From a virus, in IMG/VR virus record IMGVR_UViG_3300045009_000695, positions 1-25,219 of that record: 25,219 bases of DNA; one strand, written 5' to 3'. The translations under genes were made by a program, and so were the position numbers. The notes beneath the pieces were generated by a model. The model did not search any database. It saw nothing but the letters and a program-made list of their open reading frames with translations, and was not told the origin of the DNA. Positions 3,162 to 25,219 of the stretch are shown in pieces; the stretch's first letter is position 1, and every line of letters begins with the position of its first letter.

Positions 3162-3350
3162 ATGGACATCCTACAGGTATTGACTTGTCGATCCCATGGC
3201 TCGCACGATCACCTGAGCCCCAATACAGTCAAGGATTATGTTGTCGAGCCAGTCTTGGTTTTGTCAACGGGGCTTCCGAAACTTTTCGCGCGCCGGCGGC
3301 GGGGGTGGGCAGGTGTGTGCCAGTGTTTGGGGCTCGGTTTTTGTTTGGAT
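3162..3350. other. 189-base gap between minus-strand genes
   Basis: No credible coding frame is visible on either strand. On the minus strand a perfect TTGACA lies at 3262-3267, but the nearest good -10 match is 21 bases away, so it does not form a convincing promoter. A GC-rich self-complementary patch (around 3288-3302) precedes the G/T-rich region that starts near 3290. The gap probably carries the promoter or leader of the membrane-protein gene. Confidence 0.3.
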
Positions 3351-3512
3351 TTATCTGGTTGGTGGGCTGGTTTTGGGGGTTGGGAGCATTTTGATTGGGG
3401 TGGAGGTGTGGGCTTCTTTGTTTCGGCAGATGACTTCGGTTGCTTTGATGTGGAGGGTGAGGGTTTGTCCGCATTTGGGGCAAGTCCATATGTATTTGCG
3501 TTGGTTGGCCAT
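3351..3512 (-). CDS. zinc-ribbon-like small protein
   Basis: This 53-aa protein runs from the ATG at 3512 to TAA at 3351-3353. It begins MANQRKYIWTCPKCGQTLTL and contains C11, C14, C29 and H35, a compact zinc-binding pattern of a CxxC knuckle followed by a Cys/His pair, then a Pro/Thr-rich tail. Similar short zinc-ribbon peptides are common in phage accessory regions. No Shine-Dalgarno motif is visible, so it may be leaderless or use an unusual start context. It lies divergently from the Cys-rich protein at 3564, with 51 bases between them. Codons strongly favour C and A at third positions, matching the local G/T bias of the plus strand. Confidence 0.55.
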   Translation of the reverse strand: MANQRKYIWTCPKCGQTLTLHIKATEVICRNKEAHTSTPIKMLPTPKTSPPTR

Positions 3513-3563
3513 TGTTTAGGGGGTGCTTTTTGTTGTTGGTTGGGTTGTGGGTAGTGTGGTGTT

Positions 3564-4034
3564 GTGGGTGAGGCCAGGTTTCGTGTTCGTGAGCCGGATC
3601 ATATTGATTTTTCTGATGATGTTTTGTTGGATAAGTTTATGTCTGAGGCGGCTGTTGGTGCTCAGAGGTTGTTTGACGATTATTTGAGTAGGGGTTTTGA
3701 GATTGGGTTGGAGTCTGTTGAGGGTGATGTGGCGAGGGAGATTTGTTTGCGTCTTGGGGACGTTTTGGATGAGCTTGAACGTCGGTGTGTGAATTTTTGT
3801 CCGCATATTGATTCGTTGCCTTTTTCTCGGCCGCATGTGATTTTGCCGGCGTATCGGAGTGTTGCTTGTTTGGTGTGTGCTCCGGATCATATGAGGCAGG
3901 TGGATCCGAATTCGTCGGCTTGTGATTTGTGTGGTTTGGACACGAAAATTTTTTATGAGTTGAATTTGCAGATGGGTCCTGGGGTGTTGGCGATGAATTG
4001 TGGGGAGTGTTGTATTTCTTTGTTTAAACCTTGA
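3564..4034 (+). CDS. Cys-rich (zinc-binding-like) protein of unknown function
   Basis: This protein has 156 aa with a GTG start at 3564. The first 90 residues are predicted helical and acidic (MSEAAVGAQRLFDDYLSRGF, DVAREICLRLGDVLDELERR). The C-terminal third carries C102-x2-C105, C120-x2-C123 and C146-x2-C149-C150, arranged like zinc knuckles of a treble-clef or ribbon fold. No family is recognised. Third codon positions are overwhelmingly T or G (for example GAT, GTT, TTG), unlike the rest of the window. The end overlaps the convergent oxygenase gene by 11 bases. No clear ribosome binding site is visible, so the exact start is uncertain. Confidence 0.55.
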   Translation: MGEARFRVREPDHIDFSDDVLLDKFMSEAAVGAQRLFDDYLSRGFEIGLESVEGDVAREICLRLGDVLDELERRCVNFCPHIDSLPFSRPHVILPAYRSVACLVCAPDHMRQVDPNSSACDLCGLDTKIFYELNLQMGPGVLAMNCGECCISLFKP

Positions 4035-4791
4035 AGTCTGTGGTGATGATGTTGCCGTCGAGGTGTGATTGTGGGGGTATGGGGTTGATGGTGAGGACGC
4101 GTTGGAGCCATCTGTCGGTTCCGTCGTAGCGGGCTTTGAAGGGTTTGCGGCCGTGGATGGTTGTTTTGTTGTTGATGGTGAGGAGTTCGCCGGTTTTGAG
4201 GGTGATTTCTTTGTGGACTGTTTTTATGGCTTGGCGTAGGGCGATGAGCGCTTCTTTTGCGGATAAATTTATCCCGTTTGTGAGTTCTCCGTCGTAGCAG
4301 ATTTCCCAGGCTCCGCATGTTTTGCGTAGTGGTGTAACGATCATTTTTGTGGCGGCCGCTCCGCCGATTCTGAAGCTTTTGTCGATGCCGGTTTCATACC
4401 AGGGTATTTGCAGGTTCTCGATCGTTGGCGAGGTGAGCTCGTTCATAATGTCGTCGATGTTTGCGTAGGTTGTTGCGGCGTTTTCGTCGCCCCTGAGGCA
4501 CAGGAGGTGGATGTGGGATGGTTTGTATGGGTGGAACGCGGATTCTGTGTGGAATTCGAGTTCGACTTTTGATGATCCGGAGATTTGTTCGTTTTCGTGT
4601 TCTTTGTTGGGGATCAGGTTGTGTACGAGGCGGCCGTTTTGTTCCTGCTTGTAGGCGACCGGAAAACCGTATTTTCGGGCATGGTCGATCAGGGCATCGG
4701 ATGCGTGTTTGACTGCGGCGTTATCGACGTACGCGTCTGGTGTGGTCGGTGGTATGTCGCCGATTTCGATGCGGCGAACTTCTATGCTCAT
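4024..4791 (-). CDS. TauD/AsnO-type Fe(II)/2-oxoglutarate oxygenase
   Basis: This 255-aa protein belongs to the TauD/TfdA superfamily, closest in motif to the clavaminate synthase / L-asparagine oxygenase / arginine hydroxylase branch. Residues 78-97 (LEFHTESAFHPYKPSHIHLL) carry the iron-binding H81-x-E83 motif in the branch-typical 'FHTE.AFHP..P' context. The distal iron ligand is H213 in NNKTTIHGRKPF, and R227 or R231 in DRWLQR would bind the 2-oxoglutarate carboxylate. Characterised members hydroxylate free or carrier-bound amino acids and are usually around 330-360 residues, so this is a compact version. All catalytic residues are present, so activity is expected; the substrate is unknown. 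It lies in the G/T-skewed island, just downstream of the HicA-like gene. Confidence 0.85.
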   Translation of the reverse strand: MSIEVRRIEIGDIPPTTPDAYVDNAAVKHASDALIDHARKYGFPVAYKQEQNGRLVHNLIPNKEHENEQISGSSKVELEFHTESAFHPYKPSHIHLLCLRGDENAATTYANIDDIMNELTSPTIENLQIPWYETGIDKSFRIGGAAATKMIVTPLRKTCGAWEICYDGELTNGINLSAKEALIALRQAIKTVHKEITLKTGELLTINNKTTIHGRKPFKARYDGTDRWLQRVLTINPIPPQSHLDGNIITTDFKV

Positions 4792-4837
4792 TTCAGTAAT
4801 CTTAGTTTGTTGCCGGGTGATGCGACAGCAACTAGAT

Positions 4838-5062
4838 CTATAGGTCTTTGACCGGCACTTCGACGCCGTAGATCTTTCGCATGTCGGACACGATGGGTTT
4901 GATCGACTGCGGTGTTCCGTGGGTGAAGTAGACGGGCCCTCCGATGTGTGCCGGGGGGTGGATTTTGTAGCTCCCCTTTTTCGTAGTTACTACGTTGAAG
5001 CCGAGTTTTTGTAGCTCCTTGAAAAGCCTCATAACTGCTTTGCTTCCGTGTTGTCTTGCCAT
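4838..5062 (-). CDS. HicA-like dsRBD-fold protein
   Basis: This 74-aa protein starts at the ATG at 5062 with a strong AGGAGGAG upstream. The pattern RLFKELQKLGFNVVTTKKGS, then YKIHPP, ...VYFTHGTPQSIKPIVSDMRK resembles HicA toxins and related phage proteins: a helix, a 'GF' turn, a 'KKGSYKI' strand pair and a C-terminal helix. The catalytic histidine of true HicA (GSH) is replaced by Tyr (GSY), with a His two residues later, so RNA cleavage is uncertain. No HicB-like antitoxin gene is adjacent, which argues against a classical toxin-antitoxin pair. It is probably co-transcribed with the oxygenase 46 bases downstream and divergent from the gene at 5157. Confidence 0.5.
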   Translation of the reverse strand: MARQHGSKAVMRLFKELQKLGFNVVTTKKGSYKIHPPAHIGGPVYFTHGTPQSIKPIVSDMRKIYGVEVPVKDL

Positions 5063-5961: not shown

Positions 5962-6037
5962 GGGCCGGTAGCTCAGTGGTTAGAGCAGCACTCTTATAAG
6001 GTGTTGGTCGTGGGTTCAATTCCCACTCGGCCCACCA
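5962..6037 (+). tRNA. tRNA-Ile(UAU)
   Basis: This 76-base cloverleaf has acceptor arms GGGCCGG and TCGGCCC with A73 and an encoded CCA end, D-arm GCTC/GAGC, anticodon stem GCACT/GGTGT and T-arm GTGGG/CCCAC with loop TTCAATT. The anticodon loop is CTTATAA, so the anticodon is UAU, which reads the isoleucine codon AUA. Most bacteria read AUA with a lysidine-modified CAU tRNA, so a direct UAU anticodon is unusual and suits a phage that uses AUA more than its host. It sits between two small genes in the same direction, probably within one transcript. Confidence 0.93.
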
Positions 6038-6541: not shown

Positions 6542-7044
6542 CCCTGACCGAAAAAGAATCTTTATTGCCGTGGGCCGTGGCGATAACGCTTGAACCTTTC
6601 GAATATGCCACGGCATCGAATGTTGGGGTTCGTAGAGTTGTGACCGCCATCTATCGGAACAGCGCCAATCAGCATGGTTTTAAAAATGGTCATGGATGGG
6701 CGGAGCACATAGAGGGTGCATGTGCGGAGATGGCCGTCGCAAAACATTTTGATATTTATTGGGATGGATCTAACGGAACGTACAAAGTTCCGGATCTTTC
6801 CGGCTTGATGCAGGTTCGATGGACCCCGTATGCGACAGGGAAGTTGATCGTTCGCCCTGCGGATGACGATTACTGCAAATATGTTTTGGTCACCGGGTCT
6901 TGCCCGAATTATGTGATTCGCGGCTACATGCAGGGAGTGGTGGCCAAGAACCCAAAGTGGCTTGACAGCCTGGGTGATGTAGATCGACCGCAGACATATG
7001 CAATCCCCCAGTCGGAACTGTACGACATAAAGGACATCTGCTGA
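6538..7044 (+). CDS. nuclease-fold-like protein (possible PD-(D/E)XK)
   Basis: This 168-aa protein starts at the ATG at 6538 (ATGA overlap with the previous stop). The core reads HIEGACAEMAVAKHFDIYWD, VPDLSGLMQVRWTPYATGKL, IVRPADDDYCKYVLVTG and YVIRGYMQGVVAKNPKW. A glutamate in a helix, then an aspartate, then a Q-x-R strand and a following hydrophobic strand recall the E-D-(E/Q)xK layout of PD-(D/E)XK endonuclease folds. Proteins with this 'G..aE.avAk...yw.g' pattern are common in phages without known function. Activity is uncertain because the usual lysine is arginine here. It could act on DNA during replication, recombination or host takeover. Confidence 0.5.
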   Translation: MTLTEKESLLPWAVAITLEPFEYATASNVGVRRVVTAIYRNSANQHGFKNGHGWAEHIEGACAEMAVAKHFDIYWDGSNGTYKVPDLSGLMQVRWTPYATGKLIVRPADDDYCKYVLVTGSCPNYVIRGYMQGVVAKNPKWLDSLGDVDRPQTYAIPQSELYDIKDIC

Positions 7045-12341: not shown

Positions 12342-15300
12342 TTAGTGATTCGTCAATCTGTCGATATTCAATGCCTGGATCAGGAATGAATCACCGACCG
12401 TTCCGTCTGGTCTCGTTATGGGCTCGATTGTCAATTGGCCACGAGTCTTACGCGCATTATTGACCGTCCTGCCTTGCGGGGGATTTGCGCTTAGTAGCGC
12501 CGTTGCCTGTGCCGGATCTTTAATATATACGACGGCACGTTGAATATTGGAAGCATCGCTCGTGTCGAACATAACGAGTTCGTCAAACAGATCGCGGTTC
12601 CTTATGGAATTGCCTATGCGAGATTGAATTCCATTCATGCTTTGGTCATACAGTCCATTGGGAACTCTTCTGCCTGTTCTTCTCGCTCTTTCACGCATAC
12701 GCTTCGATGCGGTGTCCTCATCTGCAAAGAAATAGTAACCGATAACTTTATATCCGGCCACCCTGAGCTGCTCGATCGCGTCTGTGATTTCAGAGTCTTG
12801 GAGTTGGCCGAGGCTGTCATAGACGATGTCTTTTCCTTGTCTCAGTACCCTCATTTCGCCTTCGCTTCTGAGAGTTGCTAACTTAAGTGAATTGATAGCC
12901 ACCGCTTTGCTTTCGTCGTGAACAATGTTGGCCGCAATTCTATTTTTCTGTACCGTGAGAGCAAAGTACTCCGGCGTTATCAATTTCACTTCATCGGGGT
13001 CGATCGTGATTGCCTGGGTGCGTGTAGGTATGCCAGCAAGACCAGATTCGCGGATGGTTGACTTCAAAGATCCACTCGGTCCGCCAATAAGGTAAATGAT
13101 GGGTTGGGCCCGCCTCTCCGCATCCGGAACAATCGCCTGGACCCCTTCTCGATACGGAACCCACAGCGAGTTAAATCTTTGTAAATTGACGTACGGCTTG
13201 TCTCCGGTTATTGCATCAACAACCTGTCTGTCCTGATAATGGGACAACGTTGACACCCCTCTACTGAAATCACTTTGCTGCATTGTGCTGGCCGGCATCT
13301 GGATCCCAAGTGTGGTGAGCAATTCCGTCGTTGTAATCGCGCCAGTTAACCCATCTTTTGATTGATCCAGTCTGCTAGCTGTTTCATTGTCGCCAAAATT
13401 TAGAGACAGTTGTTCTGGTTTTCGACGTTTGCGTGTGGCTTTTTTGGCGCCGGGTTTCTTTTTTCTCCTGCCCAGAAGTATTTGTGGATCAAAACCAGGC
13501 TCCCTGTCTTTCCTTATCGCACCGTAGAGAGCTTGTTTTCTCGATTTGAACGGCCCGGCGATTCTCGCATTGTTATTTTGAGTGTCGATAATGTCGAATG
13601 TTCCGTCTGAATTGACTCTGATGTCGTAGCGCTGAGACATTGCTCCAGTCAAACCGGATGCCGGGTCGTTGAGAGTGCTATAACGAGGATTGCTGGGTCG
13701 AATCAAATCAAATACTTTGTCAACTTCATCATCGCTTGCGACCGGGAAGAGCTTTTGTCCAGCCGCTTGTCTGTTGATGTTGATTTTTTCGATGAGTCTT
13801 CTGTTGCGAATTCTTCCTGCTCGCTCGTGAATCTCGAGTTTTTCCACAACCCTAAAATCCTCGTTCTTCAGGGCCTCCTTCATGAATGCAGCGTGACCAA
13901 AAGCAATGTGACCATCTCCGTCAAGGATCTCAGCAAGAGGAACAAACCGGGCTTTCTTTGCGTCGCTGCCGGCAACAGCTTCCGTGGAATAGGGAACTTT
14001 TACGGACATTCCCTGCACTGTTACACCCTCGACAAAACGCGGATCCCAATCGCGTGACTGGATGATTCCAAGATTTTGGACCTGCATACCGTCTGTCGAT
14101 ATGCCGACTTCCTCTCTCACCTCCCTCGTTGCCGTTTCCACGAGGGTTTCACCTTCATCATTCAGTCCACCAGGAAGCGCTCTCGCCCCAGTGAACGGGC
14201 CGCTCTTGCGGTCAATGACCAAAACCTCAATCGATTTCAAGGGATCTTTTTCGTTCGGATTGCGCCTATAGACGACCATGTCGGCTGCGCGAATCGGCTT
14301 TACTTTTCCATAAGACCAGTCATTGCTTGACCATTTGATGTCTTCTTGATCATCGCGGCCGTCAAAATATCTGCGGACGTTGATCTTGGATTTTTTCGCG
14401 CTTCTGGACAAGCCACGGATCATTTGGCGTTCACGGGCGGACCTCGCAAGGCCGAAATCGTCTTGATTCGCCCTGCGGATTTCATTTAGTGTTCGACGAG
14501 CCCGCAGTTGCGCGCGACTAGAGGCGGGGAAATTGCCGGTCATTCTTCTTGTTCTTGCGCGTGGTGATGAGAACTGATCCTCCAAGCCATCCAGCCATTC
14601 GGCCATCTTCTTAACAAATTGGTTGTGTCTCATGTCTGGCATTGTGTCGGCAAGGCGGCTCAAGAAGCCTCTTCTATCTCCGGAGTTTCTGCTCGAATAC
14701 TTGAAAAGTTCTCTTGCTTTCTTGCCGCGAGAAGCTCCACGAATCGCTCCTGCCATAGCGCCCGTTAGGCCGTCTTCGGTGCCAGTAGATTCAAACAACT
14801 TGTCGATCTCTGCGTCAGTCATATTTGGGTGTTGGCCGCGAATTGCTTTTCGCGCCAGTTCTTTGACGACGCTTATCGCCTGAATATTGTGTCTCTTGCG
14901 AAGATCTTCAAGGTCGGTGATTCCGGTTACGGCTTTTGCTCGCTCAATTTCGACATCGATCCGACGGATCATTAATCCGGCTCTGTCAAGTATTCTTCTT
15001 GAAGCGCTGACTCTGTCGTCGCTGTGCCACTGCATTGCGTCCACCTGACCAGCAATCGTCACGAGAGTTGGATAGATAGCGGCTACGCGCCTGAGCCATC
15101 TATTCTTAAAATTTGCCGCCGACTCTTTGTTGGGGTCCCACTTTCTTCCATCTGGAAGATCCATCAACAACATGTTGGCCAGTGTGGCCAGTTCGGCATA
15201 GCGTCGACGCGCTGAACGGTAACTGGCATTTGCCTCTGTTGAGACATCCTTGTAGTACTGGCGTGCTTCTCGGAGCGTATCAAGGTACGACTCCGGTGTT

Positions 15301-18300
15301 CCTTTTGTTATTTCTTTGATTCGCGCTACCTCGGAGTTGGCAAGGTCTACCCTGAACTGCTCTTCTCGGCTGTCTGCAGCAGATGCGGCCTTTCTGCCGA
15401 GTGCGTTAAATTGCTGCGTAGTAAGACCGCGTGATTTGCTCTCGTTCTTGAGAACTCTGTCAACCACGGAACCAGATATGTCGAGCTTTGCTGCAATTTC
15501 CTGTGCGGTCAATCCATCTGTTTCGAACATCGTCCAAATCTTGTCTCGCTCGGCCTGACCTGCAGCCGTTTTGGAATCAACGTAGGTTTTCTTGTCGGCA
15601 GCGAGTTTTTTTGCGCGCGTTTCGCGCGATTTGGCAATAATTGATTTGACACCCGGAAGATCGATGTCATCCAGGTGACTGCTTGCTTCGATCAATTCTA
15701 GAAGTTTGTCCCAATCCAGTTTGGAAGGATCTACTCGCTCTGTCTTTGGGGCCTCATACTGGTCTCCGTCAATAAAATCTGGTCGTACGTAGCGGTGTTG
15801 CTGAATGTCGTATCCGTGATACTTCTCTGCCAACGGATACGCCCAGTCTCTTGCGTTTCTGACGAATCTTCTCCACATCCAGCCAAAGGTTGAATCTTGC
15901 GCAAGTTTTGTTGTGGCCTCGGAGTCAAAAGTCAAGTCTCTGGGGTCGAGATCTGGAAGCGGATCAATTTCCTGCATATTGTCAATCGCGTCTGCGGCGT
16001 CGTCATTCAGGTTCTCCATGTCTTCTGGCTTCAGATATTTGAGCCTGAGCCCAATCTCCCAAAGAGATCCATAAAGACCTTGGGCTACTGCGAGTTCCTG
16101 TGCGGCTTCGTTGTACCTCGACGTTTTCTCCATCATGTCTTGGGCAGCTTGGTCGAAAGATTTGCGCCACTCTTCCTCTGTGAAAATGTTGCCCGTATCC
16201 GGATTGATCAGCGATTCATCAGTGAACTGACCGGGCAGCGTTCCGGTTTGTTTGTATTCATCATAGGCTTTGTTTATTTGGCCGACAAAATCTTCGAAAT
16301 CCTTTGATGTGGAGTCGAGCAACTCGGCCATGCCGGAATCAAAATCTTGTTGCGTCATGGCTGTTTGCAGACCAAGTTTTTTCAACTCAAGATATTCGGT
16401 GTAGTTTCGGATCAACTCTTCTTTTGTCGGGTCGATTTCGAACGGAATATCGTCCATTGGCATAACGGATGTTCCCGGCTGTTTGAGCAGTTCGGGAATC
16501 ACATAGGAACGCCACAACATGTCGACATCCGAGTCGGGCATGTTGACAGGATCAAATTGTGCAAACGGGCTATTCGGATCAAGTTTTACGGTCTCTTCGA
16601 TGAAAGCTGCAACAATTTTTCTCTTGTTGGCCCCAAGATTCTCGATGTCGAGCCGTGACATTGGTGCGTCCCAAATCTTGAAAGATTTTATTTCTCCAAA
16701 GATTTGCGTTTCGTTTGGTCCCCACTCTCGTTCAAGTCTCTTGTAGAGCAAGTCAACGACTCTGTGCGAGAACGAGGTGACTCCTGGTGCCCCACTAATT
16801 GTCGCAACGTCAAGCGTCCCAAATTGTTCCGTCCAATTCGGGAACGGAAGAGGAGGCTCTTTTGCCAGCTGTTCTGGTGTCATGTTTTGGCGACGAATCG
16901 CTTCGGCCTGGTTGCGTAGAAGAACCTGCGAAATAATGTTGGCTTGCCAGATTCTTTGTTTTCTTGCATAATCGGATTTGCGTTCATCGCCGCTCATGGC
17001 TCCAGTCAGGCCGCTGGCACGGTAATAGCGACGAGAAAAACGGCGACTGCCGTCGGCACGCATCGCTCCGGAAAGACCGCCGAGTTTCGATTTGGCTTCT
17101 TCAAGGTTGTCCAGGTATTCACCTTTTGCTATTCGCGCCCTTCTCCATTCGGCAAAGTCGTAAAACTCGGGGTTTTTCGCTCTGGACACAAGAGTTATGC
17201 GATCGAGGATCCTGGGATCTAGATTGGCTTTTGGTACCTCAACACCATAAAAGTTGATCGGTCCAAATTCAGCAACGAGGTCGAGGTCTGATTGTATTGA
17301 CGTGAGATAGCTCGGGTCGGATGGGATTCTACCCAGCTCGGCCAAAAGTTCGGTTTGTTGCAACTGAGAAAGAGAATTAATTGGATCGGTCTCAGACTTT
17401 TGAACGTCCGTCCACAGATTCCACCATCTTTGGTCCTCTGGGGACAGACGGCCTTTAGCTTTTTGTAGTTGTGCGCCGATTTCTTTAGCGCGTCGTTTTG
17501 ACGCGGCTATGGATCGTTTTATTCGTCCGGAGTCGTCATTCTCCAAGAAATTTCTTATTTCTTGCAGCGGAATTGGTGCAGCCGCAATTTCTTGCGCTCG
17601 ACGTTCGATGGCAAAAAAGCCGGGAAACGGATCTTTGCCATCAGCGTTTGTGACATCTACTTGTGCCAATTCGTCAAAAGCTTGAAAAATTGCATCTTTT
17701 TGTTCTTTTTTGAGATTGTATTTTGTTTGTTTGGCAAGTATTAGCTTGATGGCGCCAGGCTTCTGGCCCACAGCACTCAGGGGCAACATTCCCGCGTCGA
17801 TGGCTTTGTCGCGCAGCGTCCCCATGTCAAGGGTTGCGTACAGAGTTACCTGGCGTTGGTGTTTTGATCCGTCCGGTGCCACAAAGTCCATTGCATAGAT
17901 GAAATGATCGCCTTTGCCCTTCCTTTTGAAATACAGACCACGATCAATAAGAATATTAGCCAAATCCTCTACACCCTGATTGGGAAGCTCGGGTCGTTTA
18001 CCCCAACGGCCAACGCTGACAATTCTGCTCCCCTCTGGCGGTGGGTCGGCGTTTGGGTTCCCCAGGCGGGATAGCACCGTATCGGATCTTTGCGTTCTCG
18101 TCTTTACGCCCTTTTTCGGATTTTTGTTGTCGGCCATCGCTCCGATGAGACCGCTTCCGTCGTCGATTCGCCGCATACGGCGCGCGACTGTTTGTTGTTC
18201 CGGCACCACGATTCGACGTACCGCCGGAATGGTTAATTCGGGCTTATTGGGTGTATCTGGACGTTCGTAAATTGTTCCTTCTTGAATTATTTTGTCGCTG

Positions 18301-19130
18301 TCGGCGTCTCTTGCGTCGGGATCAAATCTTGCTGTCACGCCGCGAAGACCTCTTCTTGTACGGCCAATTGTTGCCCCAAGTGCTTTTTGGTTGAACATCA
18401 ACTCGTTGAGTTGTTTGCGCGCATTTCTTGCAGCGTTCATCGCCGACTCGGTATTTCTTACAAACTGTGATCCGGATCTTGAGCCTTGAATTTTCTTTCT
18501 ATTCGTTGCTCTCACCTGGGCAGGAGTAAGACGTGACCATGCGGCACGTGGAAGATATCTGCGCATCCCACCCGGTCTATTGGCCGGTTTTCCGTCAGAC
18601 GTAGTCCAATCTTGTCTAGTCCATCTTGAAAGACTTCTTTGTCTTTTGTCTTTGCCGCCCTTGTAACCCCCACCAGCTTTGCGATAAGCCTGTGCAAGGA
18701 GTTGGGCTTTTCTCGCAGACCACTGACCAGGACGACCGCCCTTGGAGCCGGCCATGATCCTGTTTTTGATTCTGTTTCTAAGTTCTGGCTTTGTGTATGC
18801 GCCAGACTTTTCGTCGATCTCTTCAAGAGCTTTGCCGCGAACAAATCTTCTGATTTCTGTTTGAATTTCTCTTCTGCGCTGCAAACGACCGGAGTGACTG
18901 GTGCCCATTTGTCTGCGATAATCAGACTCGTTTGTGCACGGCATCCATACATATCCACCAGACTGTGAATCATATCTCCTGATACCGATACAGCCGAGCT
19001 GACGCGCCCTGACTCTGGCCGAGTCTGGATTGGAGAAGACGTCAGGGTCGGTCGGACGCAAACGGCGGGATACCCCGACGTTTTTTGCCTCGACCACGTA
19101 ATCGGTCTCTGGGTTGGTGATGATTTCCAT
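12342..19130 (-). CDS. giant multidomain virion protein (polyprotein-like) with GLTGAM repeats
   Basis: This protein has 2262 aa from the ATG at 19130 (GGAAG sits 6 bases upstream); the GTG at 19163 lacks such a signal. Modules in order are: about 40-75, a Cys/Trp segment (GCIGIRRYDSQSGGYVWMPC); about 132-225, DUF5872-like (GRPGQWSARKAQLLAQAYRK ... GGMRRYLPRAAWSRLTPAQV); 269-291, an Asp-repeat motif (FDPDARDADSDKIIQEGT, then IYERP); about 386-449, HicA-like with H409; about 1190-1230, HTH; about 1620-1750, a Nudix hydrolase with box G1655-x5-E1661-x7-RE..EE.G; and about 2005-2262, a zeta-toxin-like kinase. In the kinase the Walker A is GGPSGSLKST, with Leu replacing the usual last Gly. The hexapeptide GL(T/S/I)GA(M/I) occurs at residues 327, 685, 707, 1454, 1826 and 1927. 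Between modules lie long helical stretches. The position just before the capsid gene suggests an internal or ejected virion protein; cleavage is inference. Confidence 0.75.
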   Translation of the reverse strand: MEIITNPETDYVVEAKNVGVSRRLRPTDPDVFSNPDSARVRARQLGCIGIRRYDSQSGGYVWMPCTNESDYRRQMGTSHSGRLQRRREIQTEIRRFVRGKALEEIDEKSGAYTKPELRNRIKNRIMAGSKGGRPGQWSARKAQLLAQAYRKAGGGYKGGKDKRQRSLSRWTRQDWTTSDGKPANRPGGMRRYLPRAAWSRLTPAQVRATNRKKIQGSRSGSQFVRNTESAMNAARNARKQLNELMFNQKALGATIGRTRRGLRGVTARFDPDARDADSDKIIQEGTIYERPDTPNKPELTIPAVRRIVVPEQQTVARRMRRIDDGSGLIGAMADNKNPKKGVKTRTQRSDTVLSRLGNPNADPPPEGSRIVSVGRWGKRPELPNQGVEDLANILIDRGLYFKRKGKGDHFIYAMDFVAPDGSKHQRQVTLYATLDMGTLRDKAIDAGMLPLSAVGQKPGAIKLILAKQTKYNLKKEQKDAIFQAFDELAQVDVTNADGKDPFPGFFAIERRAQEIAAAPIPLQEIRNFLENDDSGRIKRSIAASKRRAKEIGAQLQKAKGRLSPEDQRWWNLWTDVQKSETDPINSLSQLQQTELLAELGRIPSDPSYLTSIQSDLDLVAEFGPINFYGVEVPKANLDPRILDRITLVSRAKNPEFYDFAEWRRARIAKGEYLDNLEEAKSKLGGLSGAMRADGSRRFSRRYYRASGLTGAMSGDERKSDYARKQRIWQANIISQVLLRNQAEAIRRQNMTPEQLAKEPPLPFPNWTEQFGTLDVATISGAPGVTSFSHRVVDLLYKRLEREWGPNETQIFGEIKSFKIWDAPMSRLDIENLGANKRKIVAAFIEETVKLDPNSPFAQFDPVNMPDSDVDMLWRSYVIPELLKQPGTSVMPMDDIPFEIDPTKEELIRNYTEYLELKKLGLQTAMTQQDFDSGMAELLDSTSKDFEDFVGQINKAYDEYKQTGTLPGQFTDESLINPDTGNIFTEEEWRKSFDQAAQDMMEKTSRYNEAAQELAVAQGLYGSLWEIGLRLKYLKPEDMENLNDDAADAIDNMQEIDPLPDLDPRDLTFDSEATTKLAQDSTFGWMWRRFVRNARDWAYPLAEKYHGYDIQQHRYVRPDFIDGDQYEAPKTERVDPSKLDWDKLLELIEASSHLDDIDLPGVKSIIAKSRETRAKKLAADKKTYVDSKTAAGQAERDKIWTMFETDGLTAQEIAAKLDISGSVVDRVLKNESKSRGLTTQQFNALGRKAASAADSREEQFRVDLANSEVARIKEITKGTPESYLDTLREARQYYKDVSTEANASYRSARRRYAELATLANMLLMDLPDGRKWDPNKESAANFKNRWLRRVAAIYPTLVTIAGQVDAMQWHSDDRVSASRRILDRAGLMIRRIDVEIERAKAVTGITDLEDLRKRHNIQAISVVKELARKAIRGQHPNMTDAEIDKLFESTGTEDGLTGAMAGAIRGASRGKKARELFKYSSRNSGDRRGFLSRLADTMPDMRHNQFVKKMAEWLDGLEDQFSSPRARTRRMTGNFPASSRAQLRARRTLNEIRRANQDDFGLARSARERQMIRGLSRSAKKSKINVRRYFDGRDDQEDIKWSSNDWSYGKVKPIRAADMVVYRRNPNEKDPLKSIEVLVIDRKSGPFTGARALPGGLNDEGETLVETATREVREEVGISTDGMQVQNLGIIQSRDWDPRFVEGVTVQGMSVKVPYSTEAVAGSDAKKARFVPLAEILDGDGHIAFGHAAFMKEALKNEDFRVVEKLEIHERAGRIRNRRLIEKININRQAAGQKLFPVASDDEVDKVFDLIRPSNPRYSTLNDPASGLTGAMSQRYDIRVNSDGTFDIIDTQNNNARIAGPFKSRKQALYGAIRKDREPGFDPQILLGRRKKKPGAKKATRKRRKPEQLSLNFGDNETASRLDQSKDGLTGAITTTELLTTLGIQMPASTMQQSDFSRGVSTLSHYQDRQVVDAITGDKPYVNLQRFNSLWVPYREGVQAIVPDAERRAQPIIYLIGGPSGSLKSTIRESGLAGIPTRTQAITIDPDEVKLITPEYFALTVQKNRIAANIVHDESKAVAINSLKLATLRSEGEMRVLRQGKDIVYDSLGQLQDSEITDAIEQLRVAGYKVIGYYFFADEDTASKRMRERARRTGRRVPNGLYDQSMNGIQSRIGNSIRNRDLFDELVMFDTSDASNIQRAVVYIKDPAQATALLSANPPQGRTVNNARKTRGQLTIEPITRPDGTVGDSFLIQALNIDRLTNH
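13335..18152 (-). repeat. six dispersed GL(T/S/I)GA(M/I) coding repeats
   Basis: The hexapeptide is encoded at 18135-18152 (GLIGAM), 17061-17078 (GLSGAM), 16995-17012 (GLTGAM), 14754-14771 (GLTGAM), 13638-13655 (GLTGAM) and 13335-13352 (GLTGAI). It is usually preceded by S, D or G and followed by a small or polar residue. Codons differ between copies (for example GGC/GGT/GGA for the first Gly), so the peptide and not the DNA is conserved. Copies precede the HicA-like and kinase-containing segments and follow the Nudix segment. A variant, GLIGRM, is at 9804-9821 in the 539-aa protein. Confidence 0.85.
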
Positions 19131-19199
19131 TAGATCTTCCGATTCTTGAAACTCGCCACACACAGGGCGGATGGGGAAGCAAAACCATAATACATGTTG

Positions 19200-19727: not shown

Positions 19728-22700
19728 TCAGGGAATCTCTAGTTTGTAAATTGGATTGCCGTTTGCGTCAACCACATCGTTGATGGCATCAACGATGTCA
19801 TCGACAACCCATCCATCCTGTGAAACAATCATTGCGGATCTGTTCAAAACGTTAATGTGGTTGATGGATCCGATACCGTCAGCCCTGCTTCCCTGTTGAG
19901 CGATACGAATAGTTGAAAAAAATTGTCGCGTTGCAACTTCGCCGTTTGAAAAACTACTCGCACCGTCGGCTATCGTTATGTCATAACCCAAAATCGAAGC
20001 CAGAGTTGTCGCATCTGCGTGCATTAGCGCTCTTTGTGCTTGCCGAATGCGAACATTTTGTGCAGCGCTCATTGGTTGCGTTCTGTCATAACTTCTTTCG
20101 AGTTGAACCCATGCATCGGCCATTCGTTTGACTTGGGCGGCGATTCTGTCTTTCACTACCTGCATTTGATATCGAGCAGCGCGATTATTACCGTAGCCGG
20201 ACTGTTGTGCTACTCGGAGAATTCGAGAGAGCTGATTGTCAACTGCCGCTGCGTCTGTTGGGTCGATTGAGCCTTTTACTGCATTCGTGTACCTGTCACC
20301 GTGGGTGTTCTGGAAAATTTGTTTGCCCCTTATCGTTGGCGTAGTGATGGTGAGACTTTCTTCGTTCGGTTTTCTGACGGCGTGATCCAGGGCCCACAAT
20401 GTTTCATGTACCTGGTCCTGGATTATGGTCATGTCGTCCATCAAAACAGCTTCTGCCGACACCGGCACGAAAGCAAGAATAGATCCGCCCGCACCGTCGT
20501 GATACGAGTAGAGACCATACGGGTTGTGGCCAAAGTTTTCACCGTTGCCGTAGGCCGTACCACCCGATCCGGGGATCCAGCGTTCGCCCTTGGCAAATTG
20601 TTCCACCTGTGCTGTTCGTGATGCTTGGTCGTCAGCCGAAAGTCCACGAGTAATTGGCAGTACGGCAAGCGTTCCATCCGCTTCTCGTGCCGCCACAAGA
20701 TCCGCGATTTCATCTCTGTGGATATGTACCGGCCCGTCGTTGTACCCCCCATATTCCCATGCGGTTGCGTGGATATATAGCCAAGTATCACGCTGTGCTC
20801 TCCTTCCCAGATCTGGGTCCGGCACAGCTGCCCCCCTCTTTATAAACATGCGGCCTTCGTAGGCGTCCGACAGCTGAACCAGGTAATCGATATCACCCTC
20901 ATCCAATTCGATTAGGTCGGCAACCCCTACATCCGTTGTATCCAATTGTCCTGTGGCCTGATGGGCTACGACCGCTTCGAGAAGTTCTTGTGGGGTGCGC
21001 TTTCGTTTGAGATTTCCGTTTGCATCAACGTCGGGAGCAATTTCTGAATCAATACCGCTCGCCAATGGCTTTGATGATTTTCGATATAGGCCAGCACGAA
21101 TCAGTTCCTTGATCGCACGTTTTTTGTTTTTGCTCTTTGCGGCAGATGCTCTGTTTGCCTTTTCCTTGTCGCGGAATCGGTCGAACATTTCCGGTGTAAT
21201 GAATTTCGCAAGAACTTGCTGGGTCATGTCGACTTGTTCTCCAGAAAAAATCAAGTCTTGTATAGCATTTTGGGATCTTGCCTGTGGTTGGGCTCCAGAC
21301 CCCTTTTTGCTTGCCCTCCAACTTGCAAGTGCTGTGTCGCGTCTATTTTTCCAATAGGCGATTCGCCCTCGGCCAAGGTCGTATACCCTTTCCCATGCAT
21401 CTGGCGAATCCAAGCGGAGTGCCTCATTTAAAGCCTTAATGAATACCTGCGGGGATTCTGTTTGTTCTCCTCTCCACCATCTGTTTCTTCCAGACGCAGA
21501 AATTTGACTGGAGGCTCTCCTCATATCTTCGCTGTCCATTCTTACGTCATTTTTTCCCGAACTCGAATAACGTGGTGCAAAAAACGTGCGCCATCCGCCG
21601 GTCTGGCCAACTGGTCGCGGCCTACCCGGACGTTGTGGATCATGCAAATTCGGGTCATAGTCCAGATCGTGCGCATCTTTGAGATCGTAATATTGCTTGA
21701 CCGGCAAGCTCCAACCTCGATTATTCGGATCTTCAATGAGTCCGAACAGTTCAAGTAGTGTTCTTTCTCTCATGAGAGTTCCCACCGGAACAGACATGCC
21801 ATATCGAGGGTTCGGATCATATAGAAATACTGGTCGAGCCTCAAGGTCGCCGTTTGCATCTCTATTCTCTACGAGAATCCATTCTCTGCCCCATGCACGT
21901 ACTGCCGGACTCCAGGCGGTATACACTTTTCCTCCGACGTCTAGGGTTGGGTCGCCGCGTCTCTGGTCTGCTGATTCTGTCCAGTTTTTCGGAGCACTAG
22001 TGGAAACACCAGGAATAACCGGCACGCGGCCCCCAGGGGTGTTTCGTGAGGGATAATCACTTGTTTGTGCTGTTGGGGGATATGGTCGTGCGCTTACTGT
22101 CGCATCTTCTGGAAGAGTGTTATCCAGTGTGATAACAGCCTGCGAATAATCCTCGACTGCATATCCGGTTATTTCGTGAATGAGGACGTGATTTGCGTCT
22201 GGTTTCAGATTTGGATCGTTCGGGTCGTAGGCGGGAATATTTGCCGGATCAACCGCGACATCTTTTACGCTAGTTACGACTTTTTGGCCGGCGGGTACGG
22301 GTGTGTTTTTCGCTGAGAGAGCTATTCGTTCTCTCGCATTTCCGACCGTCACCTGAGCGATGGTCGCCGTCTGCGGAACGGGTGCGTTGGGATCGTCAGC
22401 TGGATCCGGAAGTGTGATGGTTTTCGGCGCAACACCTCTCGGTGAGGCTGCAGATGGAACCGTTGGGGTTTTGGGAGCAACGGGAGTGGGGGGAGGGGTT
22501 GGCGCACCCGCCGGGGTGGCTGGGATTGTTGTTGGTTGATTGTTTGGATTTACGGGAGGAGGATTCGGTGCTGTTGGTGGAGGTGTAGGCGGTGTTGGCG
22601 GAGTCGGAGTCGGAGTCGGAGTCGGAGTCGGAGTGACGTTCGTCGGCGGAGTCGGTGTAGGAGCAGGGGTCGGGGTTGGGGGTGGGGTTGGGGTTGGGGT

Positions 22701-25219
22701 TGGGGTTGGGGGCGTGGGAGTCGGAGCGGGCGTTGGGGCTGGCGTTGGGGCTGGCGTTGGTGTGGGTGAGCTTGGCGTTGGTGAAGGCGTTGGCGTTCCA
22801 CCTCCAGGAGTTGGTGGAGTTGGACCAGACGGAGGTGGAGGCGTCGGACCAGACGGAGGCGTCGGGCCAGATGGAGGAGTGCCCGGTTTCGGGGGTCTCT
22901 TTGTTGCCGTCTTCGAGGGTTGAGTACCTGGTGGAAGCAAACCGGCCGTAACCAAAATCTCGACCCGCTTATTCGGCTTCACATCGTCCATGTTGTCAAA
23001 TTGTCCGTTTTGCTCCATTTCCGACAAGGAAAGGAAGTTGTGCAAATGGGTTCTGTAAATTGCCGCTTTTCGTGGATCACCCGGAGTATTTGCGTCTCCC
23101 TGGTCGACCTTGTCGATGAACGCAAGAATGGCGTCCTCATCCAGCGGAGTTGTGTCCGTCGGAGAAACACCCATTCTTCTTCTCCACCTGGCCTCAATAT
23201 CGTCAAGCGCGTCTGTCGCCGCTGTTGTCAGGGCATCTTTTTGTACCTGGGTAAGCGTGGAATAATCTGGGGCAAAGGGACCTTTGGTTTTTCCTGACTG
23301 GCCGTAGAACTTGCCTGTTTTCCCTGTTTGTGACATTTGAACTCGACGCAATCTGTTGCGCAAGCCCTTTGGGTAAAGAGTGAGATCGTTTGGATCAATC
23401 GTTGGTGTCGACGGGGTCGCGCCCGGCGCAGGGGTGGTTGATGGCTGTCCTGGACGAGGACCCGGGGGTGGTTGTGTTCCACCCCGGGGTGTTCGTCTCC
23501 TGCTTGGAATAATTCTTCTGCGTGGTCGCTTTTGACCCGCCGGCAAAAATACCGGCAGATCTTCTTCTTTTACGGGCTCGCCTAACAGCCTGCTCGCTCT
23601 TCTTGACTGCCACTTGGCTAGACGATCCCTAAATGACTCGGCTCGTCTCTTCCCACGACTGGCCATGGCTCTTCTGCGTTGTCTGCTTGTCTGTGGCTTT
23701 TCTGGAATCCTGTCGTCATCAAGCGCTCGCTGAACAATTTCGGATTGCCTCGGGCTTCTCCCGCGAAATTTTCTGCCGGGCTGAATGGTCCATTGCCCGT
23801 CACGGCCGCGTGATGCCATAACGTTTCCGTTCGAATCAAGAAGCTCGATCTCTACGTCGAGAAGTTCACCGCGTTCTTTGCGTCCATATCCTGAAGTTAT
23901 TCTGCTTCTTGGAAGCACCCTTACAGATCCATCCGGCAATGTGATCTTTTCGGTTACTTCCTGCAGTATCGACGTTCGATCTGGGTGCGGGGTAACGTCA
24001 ATGGCCGGCCTGATTGATCCGTCCGGAATCGGTCCGCCGATTTCAGCTTCGATTGCTTTCCTGAATCTGTCCTGCTCACTTTCCAGCATCTTTAAGGCAG
24101 TTGCTTCTTTTGCGTAGTTGTCAATGAGTCTTTGAACCGAACTGTTCTTCACTCCACGCTTATTGTCAAAAACCACAGTTGATTTTAAGTCTGTAGCCAT
24201 ATCGGCGAATCCAGAACCATAATCGCCGAATAACTTTTTGCGTTCTTCCGGCGTCAAATTCGGTCCATATGGAAATCCACGAAGCTCTGGAAGATTAAAT
24301 CTAGATATCAAGTCTTCTGACCTGATCCGTGTTTGGAAATATCCGTCCTTGTCGGTATGCCGCACCGCTGGAATCTCAGGCACCTCGGTGATGCGAGCCG
24401 CACCATATTTTCCGTATGGATCTATTTCATAATCGATTCCAAGAACTTTGTGTGGTTCAAGGAACGATACTGGCGACTGTGAGTCGGATATTGAAAACGC
24501 ATACTTTCCGTCTTCGTCAAAAACGTCTATCTTTTCCGGTTTCAGTGCGTACAGCGGCCGCAAAGTCTCGGTGTCGATTATCACTATGTCTTCGTCAGGA
24601 AAATTTCCATCTGGCCGATCTGCGTACGTCGTCAATACTTCGGTTTTGCCGGAATGTATTTTTTCTGCATGATGAGTCATGATTCTTGCGGTTTTGTCAC
24701 GGTTGGCTTTGCGTTTGACCATCGATTTTTTGACCCTGCGAAACATTCGGCGAGAACCACCGGTTGCAACCATGTCCAAAACATCATCTCGATCTATCGC
24801 CGGCACGCCCGGAGGTTTTGGATCAATCAGGCCAGCTTGTTCAAGTTTGCGTCTGCGGCGCGACCTCGAAATCGCACGCCCACCGCCCGCAAATTCCTGC
24901 ATTGCTTCAGACGCTTCGGCCAAAGTCCGGGCACCACGCCCTGCGATTTGTCTTAATGGCGATGGGCGCCTCGGGCGCTCTCCCCTGAGGGCTTGAGCGA
25001 TCCGCTCTTCGGTTTCTGCGGTATCTGGAAGATTTTGTCCCCTTAGCTTGTTTGCTGCCGCTTCGGCTCTTGCCACCCTTCGCCTGGTTCTCCTTCCCGC
25101 TCGTTCGAGGGTAACTTGTCGATTGGCGTAACCAATTCGTTCGATAGCGGTTCCAAGCTTTTGAAGTTTCGGCATATCGATTGCCCCCGCAGCAATAGCT
25201 CGTCCGATCCTTCTTATGG
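19728..25219 (-). CDS. giant virion-type protein with Pro/Thr linker and ADP-ribosyltransferase-like end (5' partial)
   Basis: An open frame of more than 1815 aa continues through the right edge without a stop. Residue numbers here count from the Met at 25175, but at least 14 upstream codons are open, so the true start is probably outside. The N-terminal part is basic and helical (RRTRRRVARAEAAANKLRGQ). Residues about 160-480 contain beta-rich segments (DEDIVIIDTETLRPLYALKP). Residues about 755-905 are a Pro/Thr/Gly linker with PTP repeats. The C-terminal region (about 1505-1610) reads VLPITRGLSADDQ, FAKGERWIPGSGGTAYGNGE and NFGHNPYGLYSYHDGAGG, similar to the RG ... G.G.yGnG.yF core of ADP-ribosyltransferases. 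The position upstream of the capsid gene suggests a head-associated or ejected protein. Confidence 0.7.
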   Translation of the reverse strand, partial: IRRIGRAIAAGAIDMPKLQKLGTAIERIGYANRQVTLERAGRRTRRRVARAEAAANKLRGQNLPDTAETEERIAQALRGERPRRPSPLRQIAGRGARTLAEASEAMQEFAGGGRAISRSRRRRKLEQAGLIDPKPPGVPAIDRDDVLDMVATGGSRRMFRRVKKSMVKRKANRDKTARIMTHHAEKIHSGKTEVLTTYADRPDGNFPDEDIVIIDTETLRPLYALKPEKIDVFDEDGKYAFSISDSQSPVSFLEPHKVLGIDYEIDPYGKYGAARITEVPEIPAVRHTDKDGYFQTRIRSEDLISRFNLPELRGFPYGPNLTPEERKKLFGDYGSGFADMATDLKSTVVFDNKRGVKNSSVQRLIDNYAKEATALKMLESEQDRFRKAIEAEIGGPIPDGSIRPAIDVTPHPDRTSILQEVTEKITLPDGSVRVLPRSRITSGYGRKERGELLDVEIELLDSNGNVMASRGRDGQWTIQPGRKFRGRSPRQSEIVQRALDDDRIPEKPQTSRQRRRAMASRGKRRAESFRDRLAKWQSRRASRLLGEPVKEEDLPVFLPAGQKRPRRRIIPSRRRTPRGGTQPPPGPRPGQPSTTPAPGATPSTPTIDPNDLTLYPKGLRNRLRRVQMSQTGKTGKFYGQSGKTKGPFAPDYSTLTQVQKDALTTAATDALDDIEARWRRRMGVSPTDTTPLDEDAILAFIDKVDQGDANTPGDPRKAAIYRTHLHNFLSLSEMEQNGQFDNMDDVKPNKRVEILVTAGLLPPGTQPSKTATKRPPKPGTPPSGPTPPSGPTPPPPSGPTPPTPGGGTPTPSPTPSSPTPTPAPTPAPTPAPTPTPPTPTPTPTPPPTPTPAPTPTPPTNVTPTPTPTPTPTPPTPPTPPPTAPNPPPVNPNNQPTTIPATPAGAPTPPPTPVAPKTPTVPSAASPRGVAPKTITLPDPADDPNAPVPQTATIAQVTVGNARERIALSAKNTPVPAGQKVVTSVKDVAVDPANIPAYDPNDPNLKPDANHVLIHEITGYAVEDYSQAVITLDNTLPEDATVSARPYPPTAQTSDYPSRNTPGGRVPVIPGVSTSAPKNWTESADQRRGDPTLDVGGKVYTAWSPAVRAWGREWILVENRDANGDLEARPVFLYDPNPRYGMSVPVGTLMRERTLLELFGLIEDPNNRGWSLPVKQYYDLKDAHDLDYDPNLHDPQRPGRPRPVGQTGGWRTFFAPRYSSSGKNDVRMDSEDMRRASSQISASGRNRWWRGEQTESPQVFIKALNEALRLDSPDAWERVYDLGRGRIAYWKNRRDTALASWRASKKGSGAQPQARSQNAIQDLIFSGEQVDMTQQVLAKFITPEMFDRFRDKEKANRASAAKSKNKKRAIKELIRAGLYRKSSKPLASGIDSEIAPDVDANGNLKRKRTPQELLEAVVAHQATGQLDTTDVGVADLIELDEGDIDYLVQLSDAYEGRMFIKRGAAVPDPDLGRRAQRDTWLYIHATAWEYGGYNDGPVHIHRDEIADLVAAREADGTLAVLPITRGLSADDQASRTAQVEQFAKGERWIPGSGGTAYGNGENFGHNPYGLYSYHDGAGGSILAFVPVSAEAVLMDDMTIIQDQVHETLWALDHAVRKPNEESLTITTPTIRGKQIFQNTHGDRYTNAVKGSIDPTDAAAVDNQLSRILRVAQQSGYGNNRAARYQMQVVKDRIAAQVKRMADAWVQLERSYDRTQPMSAAQNVRIRQAQRALMHADATTLASILGYDITIADGASSFSNGEVATRQFFSTIRIAQQGSRADGIGSINHINVLNRSAMIVSQDGWVVDDIVDAINDVVDANGNPIYKLEIP
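22440..22905 (-). repeat. low-complexity Pro/Thr-coding repeat tract
   Basis: This region codes for a long Pro/Thr/Ala/Gly linker (PTPTPTPTPP-type). Short tandem repeats are visible on the plus strand: GGAGTC about 5.8 copies at 22601-22634, GGGGTT about four copies at 22684-22710, and GGCGTTGGGGCT-like units at 22726-22755. The GGGGTT stretch could fold into a G-quadruplex on the plus (template) strand. The tract is probably length-variable between relatives. Confidence 0.85.

Follow-up and report, generated by a model that had tools for sequence, protein, structure and literature searches.

A short clavaminate-synthase-like oxygenase of phages, predicted to hydroxylate free basic amino acids at C3

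Introduction

The clavaminate-synthase-like (CSL) family includes amino-acid hydroxylases whose main known role is the tailoring of bacterial natural products. A gene in a viral DNA of 25,219 nucleotides (IMG/VR record IMGVR_UViG_3300045009_000695; this whole stretch is referred to as the window) raises the question of what an enzyme of this kind does in a phage, on which substrate it acts, and how the gene came to lie there. A preliminary description presented the gene product as an amino-acid-hydroxylase-like TauD oxygenase of shortened form with all catalytic residues intact. It was assigned to the branch of asparagine and arginine oxygenases, and its gene was considered a possible auxiliary metabolic gene acquired with an island of skewed base composition. 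Here, we examine the integrity, family, ancestry, active site, and surroundings of this oxygenase.

Results

The oxygenase gene (positions 4024–4791, minus strand) is uninterrupted from ATG to stop and encodes 255 amino acids. Its product carries H81-T82-E83 within the sequence EFHTESAFHP, together with H213, R227, and R231, and matches the TauD family of Pfam (PF02668) with 45.7 bits against a cut-off of 27 bits. Among solved structures, phmmer retrieved CmnC (2e-28), OrfP, KDO1, AsnO, clavaminate synthase, and VioC with E-values of 2e-28 to 3e-21, a resemblance to the CSL family that is far beyond chance. With a profile built from three phage homologues, KDO1 became the top solved relative (2.5e-41).

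An AlphaFold model of the protein that drew on 49 related sequences has high confidence along its whole length (mean pLDDT of 94.3). Its first Foldseek match was KDO1 with bound lysine (E-value of 8.8e-25; TMq of 0.92), and VIA-align superposed it on residues 96–357 of KDO1 with a Z-score of 31.3 and an RMSD of 1.8 Å over 252 residues. The 43 top PDB entries in the VIA-align comparison are all CSL enzymes (Z-scores of 31.3–24.8); carbapenem synthase comes next with 19.1. Scores for KDO1, VioC, CmnC, and AsnO are nearly equal (31.3 to 30.1), and the fold cannot pick a substrate because these four enzymes lie within about one Z unit.

The features that define the CSL family were found in the window protein: the HxE…H iron triad (H81, E83, and H213), two conserved arginines (R227 and R231) accompanied by Glu or Gln at position P2 (here E50), and a catalytic-domain fold closest to that of solved CSL members. 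The N-terminal helices that precede the core are absent from the window protein, which begins at KDO1 residue 96. These helices are a structural correlate of CSL enzymes and not the sequence definition of the family. The window protein is thus a CSL Fe(II)/2-oxoglutarate oxygenase of a short variant. Pfam, phmmer, and the fold uphold the initial description of an amino-acid-hydroxylase-like TauD oxygenase, and its catalytic residues are indeed all in place.

Shortness proved to be shared across the viral clade and not to reflect a local truncation. A profile scan of IMG/VR yielded 322 stretches, of which 310 encode confirmed relatives; the best 80 of these 310 were kept, and 58 distinct proteins were examined. 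These 58 are nearly all 250–290 amino acids long and are without the N-terminal helices found ahead of the core in known CSL enzymes. Viral ORFs measure 252–294 amino acids except for a contig-cut copy and an over-long frame, and bacterial relatives mostly measure ~305–360 amino acids or carry the domain as a fusion with a larger N-terminal portion. Fusions to a long N-terminal part, ~590–670 amino acids in total, occur in Streptomyces, Streptosporangium, Sphaerisporangium, and others (loci L099–L106; for example, 4747–6687 of L101). The idea that a missing N-terminus is encoded upstream was rejected, since the gene is not extended by any open frame and almost every viral homologue is equally short. 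The ORF list contains an upstream frame of 74 amino acids (4838–5062, minus strand; context only) with just a weak PHROG match; it ends 46 bases ahead of the oxygenase start codon and is not a missing N-terminus. Relative to homologues that are 67–71% identical, the window gene has a dN/dS of ~0.22–0.28, and other close viral pairs range from 0.02 to 0.38; the oxygenase gene is under purifying selection.

In an unrooted maximum-likelihood tree, a branch with a support of 100/100 and a length of 0.98 changes per column separates all 58 viral proteins from the rest. Next to this viral clade are proteins from metagenome-assembled genomes (MAGs) of Acidimicrobiia and a few Pseudomonadota. AsnO, OrfP, CmnC, and NapI lie outside the group formed by these bacterial and viral proteins (support of 94/93). 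KDO1 forms a long branch that is not sister to the viral clade, and AsnO is likewise a long branch. The tree gave no placement with dioxygenases acting on substrates other than amino acids. Viral copies are not nested among host copies in this tree of 58 viral proteins, contrary to what would be seen if an auxiliary metabolic gene had come recently from a host. The oxygenase is not a one-off phage acquisition. Phage DSL-LC01, a phage of Actinomycetia, encodes a copy that is 43% identical and annotated only as a TauD/TfdA dioxygenase; this phage (L007; record OQ999401.1, 102221–126390) also encodes several collagen-like proteins as well as a tryptophan halogenase. A search of the open-access literature, with partial coverage, found no paper on phage CSL enzymes or phage amino-acid hydroxylases, and the phage branch is apparently both large and undescribed.

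Candidate roles for individual residues come from KDO1, the L-lysine 3-hydroxylase of Catenulispora acidiphila (PDB 6f2a; PMC6224419), whose whole catalytic domain superposes on the model and whose reported contacts are all kept. KDO1 holds iron through H178, E180, and H314, contacts 2-oxoglutarate through R328, R332, and T204, and contacts lysine through E180, R332, S168, S236, D234, and D268; in CSL enzymes, the Glu or Gln at P2 holds the amino group of the substrate (PMC6224419). In the window protein, the first two iron ligands are H81 and E83 of H81-T82-E83 (4543–4551, minus strand, as for all residues below) and the third is H213 (4153–4155). R227 (4111–4113) corresponds to R328, which binds 2-oxoglutarate, and T107 aligns with T204. 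R231 (4099–4101) and S71 (4579–4581), equivalent to R332 and S168, are predicted to contact the substrate carboxylate, and E50 at P2 (4642–4644) its α-amino group. D137-x-S139 of the lid (4375–4383), equivalent to D234 and S236, would contact a side-chain ammonium group, and D167 (4291–4293), equivalent to D268, is the second acid of this sub-pocket. Every one of these positions is invariant in the 58 distinct viral proteins, with the reservation that the viral scan used the peptide patterns AFHPYKP and YDGTDRW and thereby partly built in conservation at residues 85–91 and 222–228; among contact residues this bias touches R227 alone, and the other substrate and cofactor contacts fall outside the patterns. 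Seven characterized references and two annotated GntD proteins were compared, and only KDO1 has the full residue set. Nor do the residue and fold comparisons suggest a blocked active site in the modeled protein, a defect that the preliminary description had considered.

The phage proteins also differ from KDO1. Identity is 28%, position P3 is Gln in the phages and Gly in KDO1, and KDO1 has ~95 more N-terminal residues. By helix count, the part absent from the phage form should hold α-1 to α-3. Helices α-2 and α-3 of KDO1 are part of a conserved dimer interface (PMC6224419), and we infer from their loss that the phage enzymes differ from KDO1 in assembly.

Other characterized CSL enzymes depart further from the viral residue set. 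AsnO, the asparagine oxygenase, has the same fold (Z-score of 30.1) and, like the window protein, Glu at P2. However, it lacks the DxxD sub-pocket and has Pro at D137, Asn at S71, and Leu at T107. Conversely, its hallmark PPSD sub-pocket motif and Asn at P6 are absent from the window protein, which has D-x-S…D and Ser at these positions. VioC, OrfP, CmnC, NapI, and GntD, which are of the arginine or enduracididine type, share family, fold, and iron and 2-oxoglutarate residues with the window protein. However, E50 is replaced by Gln or Leu and F140 by His in OrfP, CmnC, NapI, and both annotated GntD proteins, and the lid motif reads DxSH or DxEH in the arginine-type enzymes and GntD versus DxSF in the window protein. 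In CAS, Leu takes the place of E50 and Ala that of S139. The DxS…D arrangement is partly common to OrfP and CmnC, and an acidic sub-pocket occurs also in CAS and the arginine enzymes. NCBIfam scores of the window protein were 124.9 bits for the VioC equivalog TIGR03946 (cut-off of 418.6) and 156.3 bits for GntD NF041363 (cut-off of 345), and the score for the CAS equivalog was also far under its cut-off. These residue differences and the tree argue against the proposed asparagine/arginine branch. Phage TauD-family proteins in BFVD and PHROGs share only the broad Fe/2-oxoglutarate fold; the best match among the predicted viral structures of BFVD had a TM-score of 0.62 and 15% identity, and PHROGs v4 contained no fitting family.

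The closest bacterial relatives, CSL proteins of Acidimicrobiia and Pseudomonadota (L083–L097 and L107), are 35–42% identical with identical active-site residues and, unlike the phage form, carry an N-terminal extension (~305–345 amino acids in total). To our knowledge, none has been characterized. This long form is sparse, being present in 4 of 198 genomes in the order of genome G001. An RpiR-type regulator adjoins the CSL gene in most Actinomycetota loci, and an Lrp/AsnC regulator is found in the four Pseudomonadota loci. A threonine-aldolase-type gene (PF01212) lies nearby in 5 of ~16 bacterial loci, all on MAG contigs (L085, L087, L091, L095, and L107), and overlaps the hydroxylase gene by 4 bases in L107. 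The nearest NCBIfam models, both below cut-off, are the GntG PLP-dependent aldolase for the aldolase protein and GntD for the hydroxylase. Aldolases of this type split β-hydroxy amino acids, releasing glycine and an aldehyde, and the names of the GntD and GntG families suggest what we take to be the order of reactions, a β-hydroxylase followed by an aldolase. This pairing independently favors a free amino acid as the substrate and C3 as the site of hydroxylation. The set of RpiR regulator, CSL oxygenase, and threonine-aldolase-type enzyme is possibly an undescribed operon for amino-acid breakdown. PF01212 was absent from all 18 viral records searched, which argues that these phages do not carry the second step of the bacterial pathway; a phage-borne β-hydroxylase/aldolase pathway was accordingly rejected. 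An MTTB-type methyltransferase gene lies beside the bacterial homologue in L094.

We turned to base composition to address how the gene reached its present location. The G+T content of the plus strand is about 0.61–0.79 across positions ~3200–5060 of the window (0.65–0.79 between ~3.2 and 4.8 kb). This region includes a convergent neighbor of the oxygenase (3564–4034, plus strand), which has no assigned function and no match in Pfam, PHROG, or NCBIfam; gene maps show it kept beside the oxygenase in L008–L011, and we treat it as context only. Third codon positions are 95% G or T in this plus-strand gene and 86% A or C in the minus-strand oxygenase gene, so the bias tracks the DNA strand and not gene direction. 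The same strand-bound bias is found in L008, L009, and L011 and is absent from oxygenase genes of other viral clades, and relatives at 67–72% identity retain the oxygenase beside the same convergent neighbor. The skew looks like the result of long-term mutation pressure on one strand, for example deamination of an exposed single strand. Because the skew is limited to the clade of the window and the gene occurs in all viral clades, the oxygenase gene most likely predates it. Recent acquisition with a skewed island was therefore rejected, and the initial suggestion that the gene came with this island finds no support.

No universal partner gene accompanies the viral oxygenase; contexts vary by subclade, and a single conserved neighbor that would reveal its function was sought across the viral subclades and rejected. 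Hypervariable cassettes of several kinds, with glycosyltransferase and methyltransferase genes, lie directly 3′ of the gene in one viral subclade (L002–L005, L017, L025, L031, L036, L039, L061, L070, L076, L082, and others). By family, such cassettes were counted downstream in 16 of the 48 distinct viral loci with enough sequence for a neighborhood count, or in 18 of 48 when L022 and L082, read by eye, are included. In other subclades the gene is near ribonucleotide reductase, ThyX, or ferredoxin. L008 and L009, which belong to the group of the window, have a PAPS-reductase-like gene upstream, and no glycosyltransferase was seen near the oxygenase in the window. Collagen repeats were present in only 2 of 18 viral records. 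A second, different Fe/2-oxoglutarate oxygenase is encoded near the CSL gene at 6985–7776 of L003 and 6950–7870 of L035 (TauD type and prolyl-hydroxylase type).

Discussion

Our comparisons suggest that the window protein hydroxylates C3 of a free basic L-amino acid, with lysine as the leading candidate, a reading to which we assign a probability of roughly 60%. Its parts differ in strength. The residues that are predicted to bind a free amino group and carboxylate are invariant, which argues that the substrate is very probably a free amino acid. The two aspartates of the sub-pocket (D137 and D167) favor a side chain that is likely basic, and the position attacked is probably C3. Lysine itself has somewhat less than an even chance. 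The predicted reaction would begin with iron held by H81, E83, and H213 and 2-oxoglutarate bound by R227 and T107; splitting of 2-oxoglutarate into succinate and CO2 would give an oxidizing iron-oxo species. R231 and S71 would hold the carboxylate of the free L-amino acid and E50 would hold its amino group, with the positive side chain extending into the acidic sub-pocket (D137, S139, and D167). This arrangement would bring C3 to the iron, and a 3-hydroxy amino acid would result; the most likely product is (3S)-3-hydroxy-L-lysine or its counterpart derived from a different basic amino acid. Against a KDO1-type reading stand the low identity, the position of KDO1 in the tree, the close fold scores, and the occurrence of the sub-pocket in CAS and arginine enzymes. 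The lack of the aldolase in the viral records, and its presence in just 5 of ~16 bacterial loci on MAG contigs, weigh against the overall reading as well.

Other substrates deserve consideration. The oxygenase might hydroxylate a residue in a phage or host protein, or in a surface polymer that contains amino acids, and thereby prepare it for glycosylation with the adjoining cassettes. The cassettes 3′ of the gene, the collagen-like proteins of phage DSL-LC01, and an active site that loss of the N-terminal helices might have opened would all suit such a role. We nevertheless regard it as unlikely, given that the cassettes occur in a single viral subclade and are missing from the window, that collagen repeats are so infrequent, and that E50, S71, and R231, which would hold the amino and carboxylate groups of a free substrate, never vary. 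For the same scarcity of repeats, hydroxylation of collagen lysines was rejected as a general role. Assignment as an AsnO-type or arginine-type oxygenase of free amino acids would agree with the common family, the close fold scores, and the sub-pocket partly shared with OrfP and CmnC; AsnO has no equivalents of D137, T107, and S71, the arginine enzymes differ at E50 and F140, and the VioC and GntD scores are far under their cut-offs, which makes this assignment quite improbable.

More doubtful still is that the enzyme acts on another small molecule, such as the precursor of a peptide antibiotic or a basic amino acid that is methylated or cyclic, or that it catalyzes desaturation or cyclization instead of hydroxylation. 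CSL desaturases and cyclases (NapI and CAS) do have the same fold, and the methyltransferase gene in L094 is compatible with a methylated substrate. However, no biosynthetic cluster surrounds the phage gene, and the residue set fits the hydroxylase KDO1, not CAS or NapI.

If the window protein is a C3 hydroxylase of a free basic amino acid, the simplest idea is that the phage gains from an altered pool of free amino acids in the host during infection, and it is plausible that the gene is an auxiliary metabolic gene whose product acts on a free amino acid. It is tempting to speculate, with some reserve, that an old and large phage clade carries a compact, N-terminally reduced 3-hydroxylase of L-lysine or another basic amino acid that changes this pool. 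We found no report of host takeover through hydroxylation of the amino-acid pool in the open-access literature, of which coverage was partial. A widespread branch confined to phages, short yet invariant in its active site, implies that phages benefit from hydroxylating an amino acid, and this benefit can be tested with one small protein and a panel of amino acids. Should the proposed function prove true, the phage proteins would be compact natural biocatalysts for building blocks of the hydroxy-lysine type. The bacterial sister genes, with their regulators and aldolases, hint at an uncharacterized route of amino-acid breakdown.

Elsewhere in the window, two very long ORFs of 2273 and 1815 amino acids occupy 12342–19163 and 19728–25175 of the minus strand. 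By eye, the 2273-amino-acid ORF has a recurring GLTGAM-like motif between segments and stretches that resemble Nudix proteins and zeta-toxin-like kinases. A tRNA-Ile gene with the anticodon TAT is located at 5962–6037.
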